41,965 nucleotides of DNA from Candidatus Sulfopaludibacter sp. SbA3 (GTDB lineage: Bacteria > Acidobacteriota > Terriglobia > 20CM-2-55-15). The position numbers were made by a program, and so were the translations under genes. The stretch is taken from assembly GCA_945865815.1 (NCBI GenBank), contig CAMBFR010000023.1:1-41965 (forward strand), given 5' to 3'. The notes below the pieces were generated by a model. That model ran no database searches and was not told where the DNA came from. It saw nothing but the letters and a program-made list of their open reading frames with translations. The stretch's first letter is position 1. The number at the start of each line of letters is the position of its first letter. Below, piece after piece: positions 31,951 to 37,088 of the stretch.

Positions 31951-33168
31951 TCAGGGCATTTGTGTCAGTGCTTCGATGAGTGCCGAAGCCTTGGGCGTTC
32001 CGAGTCCGGTGACGAAGTCGTATCCGGGAGCGGCATCGCAGAGTGCGTCGCAAGTGCCCAGGAGATCATTCGAGCCCGAAGTAACATCGCGATAGTTGGT
32101 CTTGTATTCCTTCTTTGCTGCAGCGATGTACAACTGGGCGTTACTTCCCGTCAGCGGAGACTTGCCCGCATTCACACGCGCGGAATTTGCGGACGCGATG
32201 AGTGCGGACCACTGCGGGGTGCCCGCGCTGGTGCCGCCAATCTGCAACCATCCCTTGAAGCCAAAGTACGGAATGGAGGTATACGTCGCGAATCCGGTAT
32301 CGGGATCGCCATTGTAGGCCACATCCGGCGTACCGCGCTTGTCGAACGGGTTGAACGGCGCCTGGTAGGACGGTACAGGTTCGGAGATACTTAATCCTCC
32401 TCCGCTTCCACTCCAAGCCGTCTCTCCAAGGTAGGTTCCGTCCGCAGCAACGCTCAATGTGGTTCCGCCAACCGATACGACGTGCGGTGATGCTGACGGA
32501 TAGAATACGAAATTGCCAAAGTCGCCCGAAGCCGCAACAAACGTCTTATTTGACGCAAGGAAGTGAAAGTCCAGGTCCGGTCTCGTGGACGAATCTCCAA
32601 GTCCCCAACTCATCGAGATAACGCTGGCGTCCGTAGCAACCGCGGCATCTACGGCGACCATCATGTCGCTGAGTTTGGCCGTTTTGGCTTCGACCAGAAT
32701 GATATTGGCCAGTGGAGCCATGGCGTGCGCCCACTGTACGTCCAAAGCGGTTTCCAGCGCCCACAAGGTGTTCGTGCCCGGTTTTTGTCCTGAAGCGTAG
32801 ATCTTACGGAAACACCCGCTGGCGGATGTGCACGACGGCAGTCCAAAGGTCTGACTGAAGAATTCCAAATCCTCTTCGATACTGTGGTGATCGTAAGCAA
32901 CGACGATCGCTATGGTCTGGCCGCTTCCCGAGTTGCCGGGGGCAAAACCGTATGCCGTCCGTACCTGATTCGGCGTCAGGCCCGCAATGGCCGGTTGCGC
33001 GTCGCCCTTGATACGAAGAGGCAACTGAACTTCAGGATCGGCGACCTGAGCCTGGACGGTGGTAGCGATACAGAGCGCGAACGTGAGTAAAAGGACAAAA
33101 AATCGTAGAGGTTCTCGTCGATCTGCGACGAAAGGGAGTAATCCAGTAAGTATTCTCGAGCGTAGCAT
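31951..33168 (-). CDS. Sedolisin-like (S53) serine protease without propeptide
   Basis: A 405-residue secreted protease with a signal region up to about residue 41. Catalytic features of the sedolisin family are visible: Glu139 and Asp143 in WALETALDV, oxyanion Asp216 in ASGDFG, and nucleophile Ser314 in GGTSAGTP. A short segment after the signal ends in GLTPNQVRTAYGF, the normal start of the catalytic domain. The large N-terminal prodomain of most S53 proteases is absent. Two cysteine pairs (around 113-119 and in the C-terminal part) may form disulfides. Sedolisins act at acidic pH. AAAGGAA precedes the ATG. Confidence 0.88.
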   Translation of the reverse strand: MLRSRILTGLLPFVADRREPLRFFVLLLTFALCIATTVQAQVADPEVQLPLRIKGDAQPAIAGLTPNQVRTAYGFAPGNSGSGQTIAIVVAYDHHSIEEDLEFFSQTFGLPSCTSASGCFRKIYASGQKPGTNTLWALETALDVQWAHAMAPLANIILVEAKTAKLSDMMVAVDAAVATDASVISMSWGLGDSSTRPDLDFHFLASNKTFVAASGDFGNFVFYPSASPHVVSVGGTTLSVAADGTYLGETAWSGSGGGLSISEPVPSYQAPFNPFDKRGTPDVAYNGDPDTGFATYTSIPYFGFKGWLQIGGTSAGTPQWSALIASANSARVNAGKSPLTGSNAQLYIAAAKKEYKTNYRDVTSGSNDLLGTCDALCDAAPGYDFVTGLGTPKASALIEALTQMP

Positions 33169-33677: not shown

Positions 33678-34013
33678 TCATAACATGGGCGGGCGCGTGG
33701 CCGCCGCTGCCTGGCGTCCGTATGCGGTGGCGCCTTCCGAATCCATCGATACCCCTGCGAGCTTTCCGTCGACAGCGATAATCACTGCGTCCGCCCAGAT
33801 CGCATCCGCGGACGCGGGCGGAACGTATTCGCGCTGCATGCGGGCCAGGATTTCATTGTGGGATGCGCTGGCGAGGCTGCCGGGCAGGCGGCGCAGGCGA
33901 ATGTTCGCTCGCGCCTGGACGGCGCCCACTGCGGCCGCGAGCGCCAATGTTTCGGTTCGACCGGATCGTGAAGCGAAGATAACGAGCACGTTCACGGGCG
34001 TCATGGCAGTCAT
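33678..34013 (-). pseudogene. Flavodoxin-like NAD(P)H-dependent reductase, truncated
   Basis: A 111-residue reading with the flavin phosphate-binding loop of the flavodoxin/WrbA type near its start (VNVLVIFASRSGRTETLA). It ends after AIWADAVIIAVDGKLAGV and a short tail, where family members of about 200 residues would continue with the second half of the fold. The missing half includes most of the FMN isoalloxazine-binding loop. The ATG overlaps the pirin stop as ATGA, so it is translationally coupled to it. It might be a functional short variant, but truncation is more likely. Confidence 0.65.
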
Positions 34014-34714
34014 GGCAGATCGAACAGCAGGAATTCGCAGCCCGAAGGTGCTCCGGCAATCCGCAATTCACGCTCTTCGCTGATGGCGGCGCCGTCTCCC
34101 TCCTGCATTAATTGTGAATTGACCGACGCAGAACCTTTCGTCATCTGAACCCAGGAGTAGCGGTTCGCATCGAGAACGTGCGTCAGTTCCCGGCCACTCT
34201 TCAGTTGGGCGGCATAGACGAAAGCATTTTGATGAATCGTCACGCACTGTCCGTTCTTGATCCAAGGCGCAGCGAGCAACCGCAGGCCGCCTTCTTTTTC
34301 GGCCGGGTCAAAGCCGATCTGCTGGTAGCCCGGCCGGAGGTCTTCGTCGGCCGGAAGAATCCATATTTGAAAGAAGTGAACGGGGTCGGTCGTCGAAGCG
34401 TTGAACTCGCTATGCACGACGCCATTTCCCGCTGACATGATTTGAATTTCATTCGGGCGAATGGTGTGTTGCGCGCCCGTGCTGTCGCGATGAAGCAGAG
34501 AACCCTCGATGACGTACGTCAGGATCTCCATATCGCGATGGGCGTGCGGCCCGAATCCCTTGCCTGGCGCAACGCGATCTTCATTGATGACGCGCAACGC
34601 GCGAAATCCCATGTGGTCCGGATCGTGGTACTCCGCAAACGAAAACGTAAAGCGCGAGTGCAGCCAACCGCGGTCGGCCTGACCGCGGTCAGCTGCCGGT
34701 CGAACCTTGATCAA
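34010..34714 (-). CDS. Pirin family protein (quercetin dioxygenase-like)
   Basis: A 234-residue bicupin of the YhhW/pirin type. The four metal ligands are in place: His57 and His59 (PHAHRDME), His101 and Glu103 (VHSEFN). YhhW-like members have quercetin 2,3-dioxygenase activity in vitro; others act as redox-responsive proteins. The start is TTG, overlapping the tannase-family stop as TTGA. It sits in an operon with a VOC protein and a tannase/feruloyl-esterase-family protein, which points to plant phenolics, though this is inference. Confidence 0.93.
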   Translation of the reverse strand: MIKVRPAADRGQADRGWLHSRFTFSFAEYHDPDHMGFRALRVINEDRVAPGKGFGPHAHRDMEILTYVIEGSLLHRDSTGAQHTIRPNEIQIMSAGNGVVHSEFNASTTDPVHFFQIWILPADEDLRPGYQQIGFDPAEKEGGLRLLAAPWIKNGQCVTIHQNAFVYAAQLKSGRELTHVLDANRYSWVQMTKGSASVNSQLMQEGDGAAISEERELRIAGAPSGCEFLLFDLP

Positions 34715-36222
34715 GGCGTCTTGCAGGCGTAATTCGCGGCGTCGTCCGTGCTGCCGGATCCATCGTAAGTAGCAACCTGCGGGAAGGGACAGAGGAGCCG
34801 CGTACCAACTTCTTTGCCGTCTCTCACACGTTTCCCGATGATCTTGTCGGGGGCCTGTTTAGTTTGGACCCACCGATCCAGTTCGCTGACCATGTTGAAT
34901 TCGCCACGGTCTTCGCAATGGGTCATCCCGGGCACCATGAACAGGCGCACGGCGTCGCGCGCTTTTTCCGCGCCTATCGTCTGCACAACCCTGTTGTAGT
35001 AGTCGATCGAGATGCCGGGAATGGTGGTCCCGTCGCTCCAGCCCTCATAGAAAAGAAGCTTTCCGCCTCGATTGACGAATTCGCGAATATCCGGATTGTT
35101 GGCATTGAGCAGGAGATTTTCCGGCGTCTCGCCGAGGGCCACGTCGCTGTCGAAGTTAAACGGGCGGGTGCGCGGGTGCCACGCCGGATCATCAAACACA
35201 AAGTACTTGCCCCATTCCACCGCGTAGTTGAAGGGTTCCTGACCGGCCGTCGCAGCAAAAGTGAGTTCGCTTCCGGGCATGGGAGGAAAGTAGAGCTGCT
35301 CTCCGGTGCGCGGGTTCGACGGCCCGGCATAGATCCTTCGCAGCGACTCCACCTGCTGCCGAGTCAGGCATGACGCGCCGTCCGCGCCCCGGCACTGCAG
35401 CACAGCCGGATCGAACTTGCACAGCCTTGGATCCTCAATCTCGCGATTCCGCACGCCGTCCAGCGCGTCGCACGCGTTCATCACGGCGTTGTGGACCATT
35501 TCAAACTTTTCCGGAGGGATGAAGCTGGCTTCTTCCTTGTGGACGGCATCCCAGGCCCACAACTGCCACACGCGGTGACGCGACATGTGGGACTGTCCCG
35601 TTATGGCGACGGCGTCGTAATCGCCCGGATAACGCTGGATGGCGTACTGAGCAATTTGGGCGCCGGTTCCACAACCGTTAATAAAGGACAGCTTCGGACC
35701 TTGCTCATAATAAGCCGCGATGATCGCTTTCGCTTTGACGTTCATCTCATGAGCGGCGCGGTACGCGAAATCAATCACCTTTTCCGGATGGGTCAACGCG
35801 TAGCTGGAGTCGCCGGTATGGCCCCCGTCGGTCCCCGCCGTCGCAAAGCCGGCTTTCAGCGTGGTGGCCATCGCGGGCAACGGAATCGTTCCTCCCATAC
35901 CGCCTGTGCCACGGCCCTCAAAGTAACCATTCCAGCCCTGGATCGGCAGCCAGACCTCCAGCTTGATATCGGAGTCGCTGCTTGGTTTCAGCGTCGCGGT
36001 GATGCGGCAGAAGGCCGGCATATTTCGGAATGCCGCGTCCTGGTTTCCCGCAGGCGCCCTGTACGCGCCCGCCGCTACAGCCGCTGCCGACGTAATGGTT
36101 GTATTCGGCAGCGAAAGAGAAACAAGAGTTTCGCACGGCACGGCCGCTGTGGCTATTGGACTAAAAAACGTTATCGCGCCCACAACGGCGAACAAGGTAA
36201 ATGTACTTTTTCTCGTTATCAT
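34711..36222 (-). CDS. Tannase/feruloyl-esterase-family protein lacking the nucleophile serine
   Basis: A 503-residue secreted alpha/beta-hydrolase-fold protein (signal peptide to about residue 27). The family's CS-D-HC motif is mostly present: Cys184 and its partner Cys436 (which form the disulfide next to the active site), Asp397 in YEGWSDG, and His435 in THC. The calcium-binding-like CDALDGVRNREIEDPRLC stretch (251-268) is also kept. At the nucleophile position, however, NGCGTGAQ has Gly185 (codon at 35668-35670) where the family has Ser in GCSTGG. It may be a binding protein or an enzyme with another mechanism. Second gene of the operon, 12 bases after the VOC gene. Confidence 0.88.
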   Translation of the reverse strand: MITRKSTFTLFAVVGAITFFSPIATAAVPCETLVSLSLPNTTITSAAAVAAGAYRAPAGNQDAAFRNMPAFCRITATLKPSSDSDIKLEVWLPIQGWNGYFEGRGTGGMGGTIPLPAMATTLKAGFATAGTDGGHTGDSSYALTHPEKVIDFAYRAAHEMNVKAKAIIAAYYEQGPKLSFINGCGTGAQIAQYAIQRYPGDYDAVAITGQSHMSRHRVWQLWAWDAVHKEEASFIPPEKFEMVHNAVMNACDALDGVRNREIEDPRLCKFDPAVLQCRGADGASCLTRQQVESLRRIYAGPSNPRTGEQLYFPPMPGSELTFAATAGQEPFNYAVEWGKYFVFDDPAWHPRTRPFNFDSDVALGETPENLLLNANNPDIREFVNRGGKLLFYEGWSDGTTIPGISIDYYNRVVQTIGAEKARDAVRLFMVPGMTHCEDRGEFNMVSELDRWVQTKQAPDKIIGKRVRDGKEVGTRLLCPFPQVATYDGSGSTDDAANYACKTP

Positions 36223-36234
36223 GGTTCGTCCCTT

Positions 36235-37044
36235 CTATCGTGGAGCGAGATTCTCTGTCAGTTCGATGTAAGTGCCCCACGGGTCTGTTAGAAACGCAAT
36301 CTTGACGTTCGTGTTTGGCACCGTCCGGATGGGCGCCTCCAATTTAATCCCCTGTGCGTCAAGTCTTTTCGCGAGCGCCTCGAGATTCTTCACCTCGAAA
36401 CCGATGTGATCGAGCGCCCGCCCCTTCGTCGGAAGCAATGCGGTCTTTTCAACGGCAAAATGCAGGCCTGTTGCGGGTCCAGGCACCTCGCTGATTTCCT
36501 GAAGATTCGAACTGGTCAGCATGGGCGCCTTCGTGGTCTTGAATCCAAACGCCTTTTCATACCACGCTTCCATCGCCTTCATATCGGTAGGATGAAGGTG
36601 GATGTGTTCCATCTGATATTGAACGCTCGTGGAAGCATTCTGGAGGATCTCCACGCGGATGCCCTCGGGCCCGACCAGGAGGCATTGCAGCGGATTGTTG
36701 CCCTGTATTATTTGCAGGCCTTTCGCGCGCCAATTCGCCATGGATTCCTTCAGATCCATCACCGCAAAGCTGACGTGTTCGACGATCGAACCTTCCTGCG
36801 GTCCGGCAGGTTCACCCTGGCGGAACATGATGTAGGTCCCGTGCATCCGAACCATCGTGAGCGGTCCGTTGTGCACTTCGACGCCGCCCAGATGCTCAAT
36901 CCAGAATCGCTTCTGAGCTTCCACGTCCTTGACGATGTAGTGGACGTGTCCCATCGTGATTCCATCGGCATTGGGAGCGGCAAGCTGTGCCAGCGCAGGC
37001 ACAGCCAGAAGAATGCAAAGAGCGGAGGCGAATGTGAGTTTCAT
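36235..37044 (-). CDS. Secreted protein with two VOC (glyoxalase-fold) domains
   Basis: A 269-residue protein. The ATG at 37044 is chosen because a signal peptide (KLTFASALCILLAVPALAQ) starts there. Two VOC domains follow. The first starts at MGHVHYIVKDVEAQKRFW and ends with GIRVEILQN; the second runs from MEHIHLHPTDMKAMEAWY to WGTYIELTENL. His in HVHY and HIHL, and the Glu of VEILQN and IELTEN, are the usual metal ligands, with each domain supplying a pair. Dioxygenases, isomerases and resistance proteins share this fold; the partner genes suggest aromatic compounds. First gene of a four-gene operon. Confidence 0.88.
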   Translation of the reverse strand: MKLTFASALCILLAVPALAQLAAPNADGITMGHVHYIVKDVEAQKRFWIEHLGGVEVHNGPLTMVRMHGTYIMFRQGEPAGPQEGSIVEHVSFAVMDLKESMANWRAKGLQIIQGNNPLQCLLVGPEGIRVEILQNASTSVQYQMEHIHLHPTDMKAMEAWYEKAFGFKTTKAPMLTSSNLQEISEVPGPATGLHFAVEKTALLPTKGRALDHIGFEVKNLEALAKRLDAQGIKLEAPIRTVPNTNVKIAFLTDPWGTYIELTENLAPR

Positions 37045-37088
37045 GCGGAGCACTTTACCAGCCTGCGCTGCGGTTTTCAAAGCGCTGT

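Follow-up and report, generated by a model that had tools for sequence, protein, structure and literature searches.

Locus and encoded protein

The window analysed here is a 41,965-nucleotide stretch of contig CAMBFR010000023.1 from the acidobacterium Candidatus Sulfopaludibacter sp. SbA3. On its minus strand lies a gene for a tannase-fold protein, set between genes for a VOC/glyoxalase-superfamily protein and a pirin (Table 1). Translation gives an uninterrupted protein of 503 residues that matches the Pfam family Tannase (PF07519) with an E-value of 5.3e-89 and a score of 299.7 bits against a cut-off of 29.8, over residues 73-501 of the protein and positions 2-490 of the 490 in the profile. 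All ten cysteines that form the five disulfides of the PF07519 family are found, including the pair of the CS...HC disulfide, Cys184 and Cys436. Alignment with solved feruloyl esterases places Asp397 and His435 on the acid and base positions of the catalytic triad and Gly185 on the catalytic serine. The triad Asp and His required for an active tannase or feruloyl esterase are therefore present, and the nucleophilic Ser of the G-C-S-x-G motif, which is also required, is absent, the surrounding codons being GGT TGT GGA ACC GGC GCC (G-C-G-T-G-A). A first-pass annotation of this DNA had described a tannase/feruloyl-esterase family protein with an intact CS-D-HC framework and Gly at position 185; the family, the four framework residues and the position of the GGA codon are all confirmed. 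Elsewhere on the same strand, positions 31951-33168 have the look, judged by eye, of a gene for a secreted sedolisin-type (S53) peptidase.

Table 1. Features of the glycine-type tannase-fold gene and its neighbours, in window coordinates.
Feature	Position	Strand	Remarks
VOC/glyoxalase-superfamily protein, apparent signal peptide	36235..37080	-	Upstream, 12-nt gap to Gly gene; signal peptide read by eye; pairing not conserved
Gly-type tannase-fold protein, 503 aa, PF07519, ten cysteines	34711..36222	-	Pfam, alignment
Apparent Sec signal peptide, residues 1 to ~26, MITRKSTFTLFAVVGAITFFSPIATA	36145..36222	-	Read by eye
Cys184, partner in active-site disulfide	35671..35673	-	18/21 Gly clade, 144/144 Ser homologues
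Gly185 (GGA), nucleophile position	35668..35670	-	21/21 in clade
Gly209, clade-specific	35596..35598	-	21/21 Gly clade, 0/144 Ser homologues (Ala/Ser/Asp/Thr there)
His216, near clade-specific, lid start	35575..35577	-	17/21
Gln220	35563..35565	-	19/21 Gly clade, 20/144 Ser homologues
Trp224	35551..35553	-	21/21 Gly clade; Ala in most Ser homologues
Arg353-Pro354, two-residue insertion typical of clade	35161..35166	-	Missing from 143/144 Ser homologues
Glu393 in place of active-site His	35044..35046	-	His in 138/144 Ser homologues
Asp397, triad acid, kept	35032..35034	-	19/21
His435, triad base, kept	34918..34920	-	20/21
Cys436, partner of Cys184	34915..34917	-	18/21 Gly clade
Pirin, TTG start	34010..34714	-	Downstream, 4-nt overlap with Gly gene; pairing not conserved
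111-aa ORF after pirin	33678..34013	-	Weak match to N-terminal part of WrbA-type NAD(P)H:quinone oxidoreductase

Distribution and phylogeny of the glycine subfamily

Searches for homologues among Acidobacteriota, run at the ranks of family, order, class and phylum and also from other centres, covered about 1,000 distinct genomes; the phylum-wide rounds limited scoring to the best candidates per genome, and homologue counts are lower bounds. Alignment of the 166 distinct full-length Acidobacteriota homologues from the fetched loci gives Ser at position 185 in 144 proteins, Gly in 21 and His in one. The genome that contains the window (4.34 Mb, 193 contigs) has nine PF07519 genes of substantial length and one contig-end fragment. 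Three of the nine are of the Gly type (the window protein, L002 and L003), and the Ser paralogues sit on contigs other than that of the window. An ortholog with 88% identity, from a separate genome assembly, has the same Gly and was the only match when genome contigs were scanned with the window protein as single query. Homologues found in a plasmid search were all below 60% identity, with 28-36% among the 25 matches listed.

On a phylogenetic tree of the 166 proteins with the motif columns removed, the 21 Gly proteins form one clade with an SH-aLRT support of 93, below the 95 mark, and a single Ser/Gly change is needed, against a mean of 20.1 when states are shuffled. The Gly proteins also form one clade, with a support of 98, on an earlier tree of 118 proteins built from all columns; removal of the motif columns from that set places one Ser protein inside the Gly group and raises the number of changes to two. 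Given these two changes and the support of 93 in the larger set, a single origin of the clade is likely, though unproven. The members belong to four families (f1, f4, f32 and f54) in two classes, and their subtree covers about 7.5 substitutions per site. Loss of the nucleophile across a whole conserved subfamily, a criterion for pseudoenzymes, is thus seen in this 21-member clade. Judged from the alignment and tree, the window protein almost certainly belongs to a conserved Acidobacteriota subfamily of PF07519 in which the nucleophilic Ser gave way to Gly long ago, most of the active site being retained. The family itself is known, and it is the nucleophile-less subfamily recognised in these alignments that is new; no report of it was found in the open-access papers searched. 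The comparison of homologues proposed in the first-pass annotation has therefore settled in favour of Gly as a subfamily trait, the homologues not being uniformly Ser.

Codon distance and selection

A miscalled base, named at the outset as grounds for rejecting the glycine, fails as an explanation. All 144 Ser homologues use TCN codons and all 21 Gly proteins use GGN, a distance of at least two base changes; GGA lies two changes from every Ser codon and cannot result from one of them through a single miscall, and the ortholog from the separate assembly also has Gly. Ratios of dN/dS, calculated by the Nei-Gojobori method with Jukes-Cantor correction for five Gly pairs and three Ser pairs, were 0.195 for the window protein and its ortholog, 0.07-0.17 for the other four Gly pairs and 0.08-0.14 for the Ser pairs. 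By these values, the Gly trait is conserved in the subfamily under purifying selection.

Decayed copies do exist in the clade, one frameshifted (L070:3917-5475, genome G009) and one with its middle deleted (L073:6845-7745, genome G001), which shows that the Gly lineage has both gains and losses and lends some colour to the idea of a decaying pseudogene. The window gene, however, is itself intact, and its open frame, the two-base codon distance, the clade of 21 Gly proteins and dN/dS values well below 1 rule out sequencing error or decay with near certainty. A further Gly-clade fragment is found at a contig end (L074:6736-6843).

Remodelling of the pocket and retention of the Asp-His pair

Six near-fixed features are specific to the clade: Gly185, Gly209, His216, Gln220, Trp224 and the Arg-Pro insertion at 353-354. 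Residue 185 shows neither reversion to Ser nor drift to Ala. Residues 216, 220 and 224 are spaced four apart, as on a single helix face, and the lid of Ideonella sakaiensis MHETase begins in the matching stretch, where Leu254 contacts the ligand (PMC6461665; the mapping is approximate and by position). At position 393, the His that belongs to the YHGWxD motif of the active site is present in 138 of the 144 Ser homologues and gone from every Gly protein, eight of which have Glu and 11 Gly. The MHETase variant H488A keeps high turnover (PMC6461665), so an esterase would not be inactivated merely by losing the equivalent His. In the two Ser homologues closest to the clade, L114 3-1355 (Ala at 393) and L187 (Gln), this His is already absent and the GQIW lid motif already present, which suggests, from the alignment, that remodelling of the pocket preceded the loss of Ser. 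The first of these two is encoded directly upstream of the Gly gene in L143. No replacement Ser, Thr, Cys, Asp or Glu nucleophile is fixed in the clade in the alignment of 166 homologues, and Glu393 was rejected as a substitute because only the eight proteins mentioned carry it. Spatial statements here all derive from alignment with published structures; a structure predicted from a two-sequence alignment had a mean pLDDT of 36 and is the basis for no claim. This clade-specific remodelling alongside a kept His-Asp pair was missed by the first-pass annotation.

Asp397 is retained in 19 of the 21 Gly proteins and His435 in 20. The triad acid is Glu in L177, and an intact Gly-clade ORF, L123:1327-3081 (+), reads Gly, Asn and Glu at the three triad positions, acid and base both being lost. 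Cys184 and Cys436 are each kept in 18 of the 21 and have been lost only jointly (in L063, L114:1402-3057 and L170), at least twice on the tree. Because their members are lost together, the Asp-His pair and the disulfide each seem, from these alignments, still to function as a unit. This argument is not strong on its own, and retention of Asp and His for structure is a fair alternative, since, of the 76 positions that reach 95% conservation or more in the Ser group, 50 are likewise retained by 17 or more of 18 Gly members.

Comparison with characterized relatives and folds

Aspergillus oryzae feruloyl esterases B-1 (3WMT) and B-2 (6G21) are full-length PF07519 homologues of the window protein (phmmer E-values 1e-57 and 1e-60) and share with it the CS-D-HC frame, the active-site disulfide, the lid domain, the region of the calcium-site motif and the triad Asp and His. 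The window protein differs from them in having Gly for the catalytic Ser, in the replacement of GNGG by GTGG or GTAG, and in the lid helix residues and position 393. MHETase, of the same fold family (E-value 3e-40), likewise has the triad acid and base, a Cys224-Cys529-type disulfide and ten cysteines for five disulfides, whereas its Ser225 is replaced in the window protein and its His488-type residue, by motif position, is lost.

In cofactor-free dioxygenases of the alpha/beta-hydrolase fold, a His-Asp base carries the reaction and the nucleophile is dispensable, being Ala in some natural members (PMC10548524). Such enzymes, HOD and AqdC among them, resemble the window protein in the retained His-Asp pair, the replaced nucleophile and the availability of the former oxyanion hole (PMC10548524), but they belong to another alpha/beta-hydrolase family, have no lid of this type and carry Ala rather than Gly. 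The window protein has the His and Asp residues, which may serve as a base as they do in the cofactor-independent dioxygenases; its sole Pfam match is PF07519 and its only solved-structure matches are PF07519 enzymes, which places it outside the HOD/AqdC family. The parallel is an analogy of chemistry, and neither membership nor oxygenation is claimed. NDRG proteins and neuroligins are non-enzymatic members of the fold in which the nucleophile was lost, the fold kept and the whole subfamily conserved (PMC7022630). They come from families unrelated to PF07519 and have intracellular or adhesive roles, and NDRG3 has lost all of its triad (PMC7022630), whereas the Gly clade keeps Asp and His.

Genomic context

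The 12-nt gap and two 4-nt overlaps suggest that the VOC gene, the Gly gene, the pirin gene and the 111-residue ORF form an operon in this genome. That last ORF, which overlaps the pirin gene, matches only the N-terminal part of WrbA and is possibly a truncated gene. Neither VOC nor pirin was detected by tblastn in the retrieved flanks of other Gly genes, including that of the 88% ortholog, several of these contigs being short. The sister genome has its VOC ortholog (79% identity) next to an aminotransferase gene, on a different contig from the Gly ortholog, and no pirin match was found in that assembly, which is 81% complete. The gene order is therefore not conserved even within the genus and says little about function. 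The operon described in the first-pass annotation thus holds, by its spacing, for this genome and does not extend to other Gly loci, and it was dropped as a functional clue.

Other neighbours recur in Gly loci: PQQ-dependent dehydrogenase-like genes in L064, L143 and L144; Ser-type tannase genes in L069, L143, L144 and L145-L147; and TonB-type outer-membrane barrels in L073 and L145 (Pfam matches) and in L067 (by resemblance). In L145-L147, from three genomes, one Gly-type and two Ser-type tannase genes have a TonB-type outer-membrane protein gene between them, an arrangement that resembles an uptake or degradation locus.

Possible functions

With no nucleophile, no acyl-enzyme intermediate would form, and ordinary tannase or feruloyl-esterase activity would therefore not be expected; from the sequence, such acyl-enzyme chemistry is very unlikely. 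The inactivity of the MHETase S225A mutant (PMC7568301) is in line with a lost esterase activity here. The favoured reading, which is put forward tentatively, is a repurposed enzyme that may use the His-Asp pair as a general base on a phenolic or enolic group of its substrate. His435, with Asp397 setting its orientation and the Cys184-Cys436 disulfide holding it in place, would act on this acidic group of an aromatic substrate; the vacant elbow and former oxyanion hole could provide space for a second reactant or a charged intermediate; and the new lid face of His216, Gln220 and Trp224, with Gly209, would confer specificity. Retention of Asp (19/21) and His (20/21) over about 7.5 substitutions per site, when the non-triad His393 was lost in 21 of 21, argues for such catalysis, and the joint loss of both residues in L123 fits a pair that functions together. 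In its favour also count the single clade, its low dN/dS, the constancy of Gly185, the newly fixed Gly209 and Trp224, the two Ser homologues with an altered pocket and the dioxygenase precedent. Against it count the intact ORF of L123 itself, which persists without the pair, and the 50 of 76 conserved positions that are retained, which make an unchanging Asp and His nothing unusual in this family. Glycine may also simply be the easiest residue to place at a strained nucleophile elbow once Ser is no longer needed.

A close rival, rated somewhat lower, is a pure binding protein: a catalytically dead, secreted pseudo-esterase that captures, shuttles or senses phenolic esters and in which Asp and His are structural. 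The absence of the nucleophile from every one of the 21 members, the inactive MHETase S225A (PMC7568301) and the TonB-type receptor genes near several Gly genes (L067, L073, L145) all fit a protein of this kind; the presence of Asp and His in nearly all members over a long divergence does not, NDRG3 having lost the whole triad. Both ideas raised in the first-pass annotation, a phenolic-ester binding protein or a changed reaction, remain in play, as the nucleophile-less relative is genuine, and the weight it gave to VOC and pirin is withdrawn. It is unlikely that ester hydrolysis continues without a covalent intermediate, with His435-Asp397 activating water directly. Base, acid and disulfide are all kept for such a reaction, and the oxyanion hole consists of backbone amides (PMC6461665), so that a Ser-to-Gly change need not destroy it, but the Ser-to-Ala MHETase is inactive and His393 and the lid face are altered as well. 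Slightly more improbable still is a regulatory or structural role alongside an active Ser-type paralogue, such as within a mixed dimer: L143, L144, L145-L147 and L069 do have Ser-type genes next to the Gly gene or not far from it, but none was found in the retrieved flanks of the window gene or of L064, L065, L066, L067, L068, L149, L150 and L153, and the Ser paralogues of the window genome are on different contigs.

A broader form of the repurposed-enzyme reading, possible but held with more reserve, is that this tannase lineage swapped ester hydrolysis for a His-Asp base-catalysed reaction on phenolics under a remodelled lid, by analogy for example cofactor-free oxygenation, decarboxylation or C-C cleavage. 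His393 loss and GQxW gain would have come before the loss of Ser, and the living Ser relatives would record the intermediates.

PF07519 is of biotechnological interest for its tannases, feruloyl esterases and PET-related MHETase. Homology alone is routinely taken as grounds for annotating its members as esterases, which is probably wrong for Gly-clade proteins. With ordinary esterase work improbable, these would either bind phenolic compounds or perform different chemistry on them. The Ser relatives with altered lids, the Gly clade and L123, without Asp and His, make up a natural series for testing the loss of esterase activity or a change of reaction. Outside the Gly clade, in the PF07519 protein L215:333-2198 (-), the nucleophile position holds a His and the triad His is missing (GMGMC); from these alignments, triad loss thus seems to have occurred more than once in the family.
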